This document shows, piece after piece, positions 6,472 to 8,811 of a stretch of 64,000 bases of DNA. Source of the DNA: Candidatus Chloroploca mongolica. Its GTDB lineage: Bacteria; Chloroflexota; Chloroflexia; Chloroflexales; Chloroflexaceae. Positions within the stretch are counted from its first letter, which is position 1; every line of letters begins with the position of its first letter. Under the pieces are notes generated by a model. That model worked only from the letters and a program-made list of their open reading frames with translations, searched no databases and had not been told where the DNA came from. Both the position numbers and the translations under genes were made by a program. Where the stretch lies: positions 62,001 to 126,000 of the forward strand of contig NZ_SIJK02000006.1 in assembly GCF_004762035.2 (NCBI RefSeq), read 5' to 3'.

Positions 6472-6554
6472 TGTAGTGTAGATCTCCTTAGATGAACAGC
6501 TCCAGGTGCCACATGCTGCATCTATTCCAGTATACCACTGCAACAAAAGCACGG

Positions 6555-6560
6555 TATACT
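6555..6560 (+). promoter_or_regulatory. Candidate -10 box for a leaderless phosphatase transcript
   Basis: TATACT lies only five bases before the ATG at 6566, so transcription would begin at or next to the start codon. No Shine-Dalgarno sequence is present between them, consistent with leaderless translation. No clear -35 is visible. Confidence 0.45.
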
Positions 6561-6565
6561 GCATC

Positions 6566-7081
6566 ATGATGAAAGATCTTCCCCACGACAACAGTTACCG
6601 GGTTGCGCCCAATTTCATTGCGGGTGAGTATCCAGGCGCGGCGGTGCCGGATCTGGCGCAACGGCGCATTGCCTTGCACCTCGATGCCGGCATTACGTCG
6701 TTCCTTGATCTCACCGAGGTCGACGCGCTTGTGCCATACGAGGCGCTGCTCGCCACCGAGGCTCAGTTCCGCCAGATGACCGTGCGCTACCGGCGTATGT
6801 CGATTGATGATGGCAGCATTCCGCAGTCGCGGGCCGTGATGGAGGCGATCCTGGACTACCTTGATGGCGAAATCGCCGCCGGGCAGACGGTCTACCTTCA
6901 CTGCTGGGGCGGCATCGGGCGAACAGGCACCGTGGTTGGTTGCTGGCTGGTACGCCGCGGCATGCGCGGTGAAGATGCGCTGGCAACGCTTGCCCGTCAC
7001 TGGCAAGGGGTCGCCAAACGCATCTACCATCCGCACAGCCCCGAGACCCAACAGCAACGAGACTATATTTTGAGGTGGTAA
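6566..7081 (+). CDS. Dual-specificity/tyrosine protein phosphatase-like protein
   Basis: A cytoplasmic Cys-based phosphatase of about 171 residues. The active-site loop HCWGGIGRTG has the CX5R signature (catalytic Cys, phosphate-binding Arg), and an upstream SIDDGSIP segment could supply the general acid Asp. The size matches small cyanobacterial and Chloroflexi DSP-like phosphatases. Two adjacent ATG codons (6566 and 6569) follow a TATACT box, suggesting a leaderless mRNA. The substrate is unknown. It converges on the antiporter/rhodanese gene, whose readthrough frame would end only three bases after this stop codon. Confidence 0.85.
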   Translation: MMKDLPHDNSYRVAPNFIAGEYPGAAVPDLAQRRIALHLDAGITSFLDLTEVDALVPYEALLATEAQFRQMTVRYRRMSIDDGSIPQSRAVMEAILDYLDGEIAAGQTVYLHCWGGIGRTGTVVGCWLVRRGMRGEDALATLARHWQGVAKRIYHPHSPETQQQRDYILRW

Positions 7082-7084
7082 GGC

Positions 7085-7222
7085 TCACTCTTCAATGCGC
7101 GGCATCAAGGGCAAATCGGCATCAACCCAGGCTTGCCAACCGCCGACGAGGGCACGGGCACGGGGCCAGCCTGCTTTATGCAATTCTCGCGCCACCCGGG
7201 CGCTTGTCTCTTCGCTCCCTCA
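7085..7222 (-). other. C-terminal half of a rhodanese domain beyond an in-frame TGA (possible Sec codon)
   Basis: The frame of the antiporter gene continues through TGA (7220-7222) for 44 more codons to a TGA at 7085-7087. The continuation is unmistakably rhodanese: GSEETSARVARELHKAGW, then GGWQAW, then a short tail. The TGA falls in the active-site loop (Y-C-T-TGA-G-S-E), where related fused rhodaneses commonly have Cys (YC-x-CP-x-E). Downstream, GCGCC/GGCGC pairs around loop CGGGT (7189-7203), with 16 bases between the TGA and the stem. The result is either a selenocysteine codon, a recent TGC/TGT-to-TGA nonsense mutation, or a sequence error. Confidence 0.7.
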
Positions 7223-8737
7223 GGTGCAGTAGGCAACGACCCACGCCTCGCTCGGCACCCCAAAGGCTTTGAGGGCCGCAACGGCGCGATCGGGTGGCAC
7301 ACGCAGCGCACCATCGGCCATCGTTTCCGTCGCCCGATAACTGCGCTCGGTACGCACATCAATCAGCACCACTGGCTCGCCACGCGACCGGTGCAGACGC
7401 ATCTGCTCCAGGTTCATCCGTTCCGGCAGACCTGGCGCAGGCATCAGCGGAATCGCTTCGACCTGGCCCGCGGTGGGCATCAGTGGGATGAACTCACCCT
7501 CGGTTAGGCGCTGCTGGGGAGCAAGCACCGGCGCTGGCGCACTAGACGGGGTGCGCCGCCGACGCCGCAGCAGCGGCCAGCCGCCCTGCAGGGCCACTGA
7601 CACAAGGACAACCAGGCTCGCCAGGGCGACCACTCGTTCGCCATCGGGGAGGTCGCCAAAGACGGCGATCAGCGCCAGCAGCAGCACCCCGAGGCCACGC
7701 GGCCCGTACCACCCCAGGGTCAGGCGCTCGCGGAGGGTCAACCCGACCGCGCCGAGGGCCACGGCAAAGATCGGCAGACGCACCAGCAGCACGATCGCCA
7801 CAAAGAGCAACGCCGCCGGCCCGATTACCCCGATACCACTCCAGATCGGCGATGTACCGAGCAACACATAGGTAAAAAGCAGCGCCATCTCGGCGGTAAC
7901 CTGCCCATACTCAAGAAAGCAATCGCAGAGTTCAACGTCAAGCGACGAGACCACAAGGCCAGCGGCGAAGGCCGCGAGAAAGCCGCTGCCACCGAGGGCT
8001 TCAGCGGCGGCAAAGGCAGTCAGCGCCACGCCGATCACATAGAGCGACTCGTACTCGCGGCGCACCCCAAAGCGGTCACGCACCAAAACAAGCAAACGCA
8101 CCGAGGCCACGCCAACAAAGATCCCGGCCAGCGGCCCAAGCAAAAAGAGGCTGACCAGCAGACTCACGAGCGTCCCTGCGGGCGGCGTTCCTCCGGCGAC
8201 CCCAAACGCCAGCGCAATCATCACAATCGGCAAGAGCAGCACATCATTCATTCCGCTCTCGAGGCGCAGCGCAAGGTGCATCCTGGGTGGCATGCCGCTG
8301 CCCTGAAGCATGCCGCGCAAGACGACCGGATCGGTCGAAGCCACCGCAGCACCGAGAATGATGGCGGCAACGAGCGGGAGATCAAGCAACCACCAGGCTG
8401 CGCCGGCAAGGCCAAAAGCCGCTACCAGCGTCCCGGGGCCAAGAATCAATGCAGCGAGCGTCTTATTGCGACGCACCTCACCAAGATCGAGCGTCATCGC
8501 ATCGGTAAAGAGCACCAGCACCAGGCTGAGCGTCGAGACAACGCGCAAAAAGGGATCATCAAGGGTCATATTGACCAGGCCCAGCCCAAACGGCCCGAGC
8601 ACGAGGCCCAGCAGGAGAAACACCGCTAGCCCCGGCAAACCGGTACGCTCGGCAGGCCCTGCCATCAGTGCGCCGCCAATGATCACCGCGCCAATCAACC
8701 CGAACATCGCGATCAGTGTCTGCGTGTCAAAGATCAT
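7220..8737 (-). CDS. CPA1-type cation/proton antiporter with truncated C-terminal rhodanese domain
   Basis: A Na+/H+ exchanger-type membrane protein, 505 residues as read. Twelve or so transmembrane helices occupy residues 5-390, with the STDPVV signature near residue 140 and a LESGMND motif near residue 165, both characteristic of the NhaP/CPA1 group. A cytoplasmic linker follows, then a rhodanese-like domain from about residue 450 (VVLIDVRTERSY, VVAYCT). The frame stops at TGA in the active-site loop, although the rest of the rhodanese domain is intact downstream (7085-7219). Full-length readthrough would give 550 residues. The start ATG lies only 17 bases past a 27-bp hairpin (8755-8811). 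A link between ion flux and sulfur/selenium chemistry is inference. Confidence 0.88.
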   Translation of the reverse strand: MIFDTQTLIAMFGLIGAVIIGGALMAGPAERTGLPGLAVFLLLGLVLGPFGLGLVNMTLDDPFLRVVSTLSLVLVLFTDAMTLDLGEVRRNKTLAALILGPGTLVAAFGLAGAAWWLLDLPLVAAIILGAAVASTDPVVLRGMLQGSGMPPRMHLALRLESGMNDVLLLPIVMIALAFGVAGGTPPAGTLVSLLVSLFLLGPLAGIFVGVASVRLLVLVRDRFGVRREYESLYVIGVALTAFAAAEALGGSGFLAAFAAGLVVSSLDVELCDCFLEYGQVTAEMALLFTYVLLGTSPIWSGIGVIGPAALLFVAIVLLVRLPIFAVALGAVGLTLRERLTLGWYGPRGLGVLLLALIAVFGDLPDGERVVALASLVVLVSVALQGGWPLLRRRRRTPSSAPAPVLAPQQRLTEGEFIPLMPTAGQVEAIPLMPAPGLPERMNLEQMRLHRSRGEPVVLIDVRTERSYRATETMADGALRVPPDRAVAALKAFGVPSEAWVVAYCT

Positions 8738-8754: not shown

Positions 8755-8811
8755 AGGTTACTGCTCGTGAAAGCTGCCAGCAAAGCTGGCAGCTTTCACG
8801 AGCAGTAACCT
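8755..8811. terminator. 27-bp perfect hairpin with AAA triloop
   Basis: Perfect inverted repeat, arms 8755-8781 and 8785-8811, core CAGC-AAA-GCTG. It lies after the PanE-like gene and just before the antiporter start, both minus strand. It is the clearest example of the hairpin family found across the window; it would terminate panE transcription or fold in the antiporter leader. There is no downstream U-tract. Confidence 0.75.

Follow-up and report, generated by a model that had tools for sequence, protein, structure and literature searches.

Rhodanese selenoproteins with a CxU active site are already known (PMC13188914, PMC9312934). The curated family closest to the gene described here is NF041203 (rhodanese_LYCAU, 'rhodanese-related (seleno)protein'), a type listed as rhodanese form 3, CxU, in a 2026 catalogue (PMC13188914). 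Like our gene, it pairs a Cys at the catalytic position with a selenocysteine (Sec) two residues on, although it models a 126-residue stand-alone protein, whereas the domain studied here forms the C-terminus of an antiporter. TsoB, a rhodanese/DsbD fusion (NF045694), likewise joins a Sec rhodanese to a membrane protein, but has a UxxxxU motif with two Sec and a DsbD-like partner. For the membrane part, the nearest solved folds identified by Foldseek are PaNhaP (4cz8, E 9e-12) and MjNhaP1 (4czb), which have the membrane fold and the Asn-Asp ion-binding motif in common with our protein but lack its linker and rhodanese tail; identity in the structural match is about 22%. The K+/H+ exchanger KefC (8by2), also among the Foldseek matches, offers an analogy as an antiporter with a cytosolic, thiol-controlled regulatory domain. 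KefC is a glutathione-gated member of the CPA2 family with a KTN/Rossmann regulatory domain and no Sec. Sec-containing transport proteins have been listed previously. An antiporter-rhodanese selenoprotein does not appear in the 2026 catalogue, from which the word antiporter is absent (PMC13188914), and none was found above cut-off in NCBIfam 20.0 or in the openly searchable literature. The combination is apparently undescribed so far.

An antiporter-rhodanese fusion with an in-frame TGA

The fusion lies in a 64,000-nucleotide stretch of the Candidatus Chloroploca mongolica genome (contig NZ_SIJK02000006.1), referred to here as the window. Translation of the minus strand from 8737 to 7085 gives 505 codons, a TGA at 7220-7222, and 44 sense codons ending in ...GGWQAWVDADLPLMPRIEE before a TGA stop. 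The internal TGA is codon 506, two residues beyond the Cys at the rhodanese catalytic position (YCT-U), and is the sole interruption of the fusion frame. The first-pass annotation of this DNA had proposed just such an otherwise perfect frame with 44 intact codons after the TGA, a product of 550 residues and a stop codon three bases from a convergent gene; all of this was borne out, with the convergent open reading frame (ORF) ending at 7081. The features of the locus are as follows.

7085-8737, minus strand: antiporter-rhodanese fusion gene, 550 codons including one predicted Sec-UGA, plus the TGA stop at 7085-7087
7580-8671, minus strand: Na_H_Exchanger membrane domain, residues 23-386 (PF00999, E 6.5e-40, 137.6 bits)
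7427-7558, minus strand: predicted disordered linker from membrane domain to rhodanese, residues 394-437 (pLDDT under 50; lengths vary among homologues)
7106-7420, minus strand: rhodanese domain, residues 440-544 (PF00581, E 8.9e-7; NF041203, 76 bits)
7226-7228, minus strand: codon of the invariant Cys504 at the rhodanese catalytic position (Cys at all 55 Sec and all 7 Cys loci)
7220-7222, minus strand: in-frame TGA, predicted selenocysteine 506 of a CxU motif (55 TGA and 7 TGC/TGT among non-redundant relatives)
7189-7203, minus strand: predicted bacterial Sec insertion element (bSECIS) stem-loop, arms 7199-7203 and 7189-7193, loop 7194-7198 (CGGGT)
7088-7219, minus strand: 44 codons reached only by decoding UGA as an amino acid (dN/dS 0 to 0.04 within the genus)

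The membrane domain is predicted to be a CPA1/NhaP-type cation/proton antiporter, since it combines the Na_H_Exchanger domain with the acidic ion-binding motif (ND) of that family. Asn164-Asp165 and Thr135-Asp136 are invariant in the homologue alignment, as should be the case in NhaP-type exchangers. The rhodanese domain has the rhodanese fold and is a putative sulfurtransferase; its PF00581 match spans residues 453-539 (29.7 bits), and the C-x-U or C-x-C active-site motif is present across loci as YCT-U, YCA-U or YC[AGST]C. NF041203 is the best-scoring curated rhodanese model for the window domain (76.4 bits) and other fusions (86-96 bits), although the window domain does not reach its curated cut-off of 115 bits. 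NF045694 gave no match to the window protein at E up to 0.01. In an AlphaFold2 model built from 12 homologues (mean pLDDT 73.6), the antiporter helices are followed by a linker, disordered from 394 to 437, and then by the rhodanese domain, mostly at good confidence. In this model, the central strand (499-503) leads into Cys504, Thr505 and residue 506 and then into a helix (510-522), a segment that corresponds to the active-site loop of a rhodanese fold, with the catalytic Cys at its start. The loop, CTUGSEETS, exceeds those of the nearest solved rhodaneses in length.

Decoding of codon 506

Relatives were drawn from the order of the window genome and from named genomes, and their rhodanese domains were aligned by HMM. 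After removal of duplicates, 62 non-redundant loci had a residue at position 506, where the codon is TGA in 55, TGC in five and TGT in two. None of the 62 has TGG, CGA or another CGN codon, AGR, TAA or TAG. Aligning homologues at this codon, a check put forward by the first-pass annotation, thus uncovered only TGA or Cys codons, and the gene shows the in-frame UGA with Cys homologues by which a selenoprotein is recognized. Records with the Sec form carry the labels Chloroflexota, Thermomicrobiota, Acidobacteriota, Gemmatimonadota, Actinomycetota, Myxococcota and Pseudomonadota, and among them are the isolates Dictyobacter aurantiacus and Ktedonospora formicarum. Phylogenetic analysis was carried out on the 58 of the 62 loci with sufficient upstream frame as fusions (52 Sec, 6 Cys); in the few remaining ones the contig ends too early or the frame is broken. 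The Sec/Cys label changes five times on the maximum-likelihood tree, and Cys rows are scattered within Sec clades, which is consistent with an ancestral Sec and repeated Sec-to-Cys conversion, a direction that we infer.

The window TGA is followed, 21 nt before the loop, by a GCGCC/GGCGC stem with the loop CGGGT, as the first-pass annotation had noted for 7189-7203. All five base pairs of this stem form in 55/55 TGA copies, with the same 21-nt spacing, and the loop is without exception C-G-[G/T]-G-N. Three stem pairs show compensatory change: U-A replaces C-G at pair 2 in four loci, A-U replaces G-C at pair 3 in three loci, and U-A replaces C-G at pair 4 in two loci. These nine double changes compare with a shuffled mean of 0.7, and the covariation score of the stem is 0.163 versus 0.097 in shuffles (reached by 0/500 shuffles). 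When the 3' arm is shifted by a single base, pairing falls from 100% to about 21%. Synonymous sites in the stem-loop are frozen, with entropies of 0, 0.82, 0 and 0.38 bits at the four-fold sites of its codons versus about 1.2-1.9 bits at most flanking sites. The third base is C at codon +7 and G at codon +9 in 55/55 copies, codon +8 ends only in T or G, and codon +6 is always AGY and never TCN. On its own, the window sequence has no folding advantage over its dinucleotide shuffles (z 0.10 and -0.60); support for the stem is comparative. Constraints on bSECIS stem, loop, spacing and energy have been published (PMC13188914), and the window element falls within all of them (5 bp, a 5-nt CGKGN loop, 21 nt, and a minimum free energy of -9.0 kcal/mol), which agrees with its earlier reading as a SECIS candidate. 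Among the seven Cys copies, one keeps all five pairs when G-U is counted and the others keep zero to four, and neither the loop nor the AGY-GCC signature is retained; judged from the aligned copies, the bSECIS element is lost in the Cys forms.

Codons beyond the UGA were compared with those of two congeners, Ca. Chloroploca asiatica B7-9 and Chloroploca sp. Khr17, giving 7 synonymous to 1 nonsynonymous and 4 to 0 changes (dN/dS 0.04 and 0). Sister pairs elsewhere range from 0 to 0.49. This purifying selection argues that the tail is translated. The random substitutions and frameshifts that the first-pass annotation had named as evidence against Sec were not what the C-terminal half of the relatives held; the frame is conserved and dN/dS is low.

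The window genome (6.3 Mb, 160 contigs, 99.84% complete) contains all of selA, selB, selC and selD, the Sec machinery on which the same annotation had made its proposal depend. SelA scores 553 bits, and SelB, in a 632-aa ORF, lies 321 bits over its cut-off. The tRNA-Sec (70.8 bits, anticodon UCA) is also called by ARAGORN as tRNA-SeC (tca). SelD scores 379 bits and has an in-frame TGA of its own at its active site (SSAGUASKLGP), so it is predicted to be a selenoprotein too; the selD locus (L056) is at G000:C72:130459-131388.

Across genomes with the fusion gene, true tRNA-Sec matches score at least 65 bits and other matches end at about 52. By this measure tRNA-Sec is present in 35/42 Sec-form genomes versus 0/7 Cys-form genomes, the latter including the complete chromosome of Ca. 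Manganitrophus GAC4; the Fisher p of 4e-5 is indicative only, because the genomes are not independent draws. The Sec-form genomes without a tRNA-Sec in the true score range are G029, G054, G062, G104, G106, G108 and G112, and the three of these with a stated completeness are 80-88% complete. G040 (99% complete) has tRNA-Sec, yet no full-length SelB was found; its gene may fall in an unassembled gap or have been lost. The Sec-form fusion of G040 (L010) is among those carrying a compensatory stem change.

We conclude that the TGA at 7220-7222 is almost certainly a selenocysteine codon and that the gene is predicted to encode a 550-residue transporter-rhodanese selenoprotein. The first-pass annotation had left the choice between Sec and a fresh nonsense mutation; the machinery, the restriction of the codon to TGA or Cys, the covarying stem and the conserved C-terminal frame together strongly support Sec. 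Because dozens of relatives in several phyla share both the codon and its RNA signal, this is a real selenoprotein variant and not a broken gene. Reassignment of UGA, or its readthrough as Trp, Arg or Cys without Sec under an alternative code or natural suppression, would fit the Cys alternates, which imply that some residue must be inserted; its probability is nevertheless negligible, given that genes, the fusion included, end normally in TGA, that no relative has TGG, CGN or AGR, that the stem is retained in TGA copies only, and that tRNA-Sec and SelB are in the genome. A true stop, whether a fresh nonsense mutation or a pseudogene, has the literal stop codon on its side and would leave a truncated antiporter of 505 residues with the whole membrane domain, but it is extremely improbable when 55 relatives in several phyla share the TGA, with purifying selection after it, a covarying stem behind it and Cys as the only alternative residue. 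A fresh mutation is refuted because C. asiatica, Khr17 and genera further away have the TGA as well, and a pseudogene is ruled out by the conserved TGA, frame and stem.

Predicted function of the fused rhodanese

SelB acting on the stem-loop at 7189-7203 would bring Sec to codon 506 and complete the rhodanese domain, which would be tethered to the NhaP-type antiporter by the flexible linker and would probably be cytosolic. Cys504, at the position that carries the persulfide in rhodaneses, and Sec506 would then form a C-x-U pair that appears well placed for persulfide or selenenylsulfide formation and for signalling to the antiporter. By analogy with the glutathione/electrophile gating of KefC, it is hypothesized, as the likeliest mechanism but with evenly balanced confidence, that this pair constitutes a reversible redox or sulfane-sulfur switch that changes antiporter activity; a metalloid-binding site is an alternative to such a switch.

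A nearly comparable case can be made for the rhodanese as a membrane-anchored enzyme, such as a sulfurtransferase or reductase, a Se/S carrier or a metalloid detoxifier, that does not regulate transport. The linker is long and disordered, Sec-CxU rhodaneses with the same stem exist without an antiporter (L139, L161, L166), and the named rhodaneses that come next in similarity include NF033833 ChrE (chromate resistance). The fusion has nevertheless been kept in two deep clades and several phyla, which suggests coupling of the two domains.

It is unlikely, though compatible with the other readings as an addition to them, that selenium supply selects between two products, the full fusion when Se is present and, when it is not, a functional antiporter of 505 residues from which half of the rhodanese domain is missing. 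Bacterial Sec insertion is in general in competition with termination, and the TGA lies past the whole membrane domain and within the last domain, such that termination would leave an intact transporter. The truncated rhodanese domain would probably be misfolded, however, and with five switches between Sec and Cys on the tree, several lineages seem to manage with the full-length protein only.

Returning to the switch, we also consider a broader proposal, one that we hold tentatively and regard as rather doubtful: that these genes form a widespread, uncatalogued class of selenium-controlled cation/proton antiporters, in which Se supply decides whether there is a working Cys-Sec sulfur/redox sensor. 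If so, trace-element status and sulfur stress would be tied to ion homeostasis.

Wider family and genomic surroundings

A 40-nt IUPAC pattern comprising the TGA and stem matched 29 of 400 Chloroflexota genomes and the reversed pattern matched none, which is far above chance. The 30 pattern sites comprise 17 in antiporter fusions and 13 in rhodaneses without an upstream antiporter, some of the latter having a short hydrophobic N-terminus and some a C-terminal CPxC tail. Since these antiporter-less rhodaneses have the SECIS in common with it, the antiporter fusion represents one architecture of a broader CxU-rhodanese family. Three antiporter-less rhodaneses tested against NF041203 scored below or barely at its cut-off. 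A second Chloroflexota Sec-rhodanese architecture with the same SECIS and no antiporter (L147-L153, L164) combines an N-terminal part resembling DVTSSLVYPAV with a CPDC/CPEC tail at the C-terminus.

Wherever TGA is taken as a stop, fusion genes would be annotated as truncated antiporters, a systematic mis-calling across Chloroflexota, Thermomicrobiota, Acidobacteriota, Gemmatimonadota, Actinomycetota and others. With the predicted fusion, a secondary cation/proton antiporter would join the few transport proteins listed as containing Sec, and the natural Sec-to-Cys pairs offer a test of what selenium contributes to the rhodanese active site.

Clustering of gene neighbours around the loci revealed nothing besides the fusion that recurs in more than four loci; the neighbourhood is not conserved and gives no clue to function. 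In the window, the convergent ORF (6506-7081, plus strand), 3 bases from the fusion stop codon, has a phosphatase-like signature, HCWGGIGRTG. On the other side, immediately upstream of the antiporter start, a perfect 25-bp inverted repeat (GTTACTGCTCGTGAAAGCTGCCAGC, 3-nt loop) occupies 8757-8809 and lies downstream of a ketopantoate-reductase-like gene. This repeat is conserved at the same place in C. asiatica and Khr17, and hairpins of a related type (GAAAG-tGCCAGC) are present at a few further sites in the Chloroploca genomes examined (the window's, C. asiatica and Khr17). It is probably a terminator or a small dispersed repeat.
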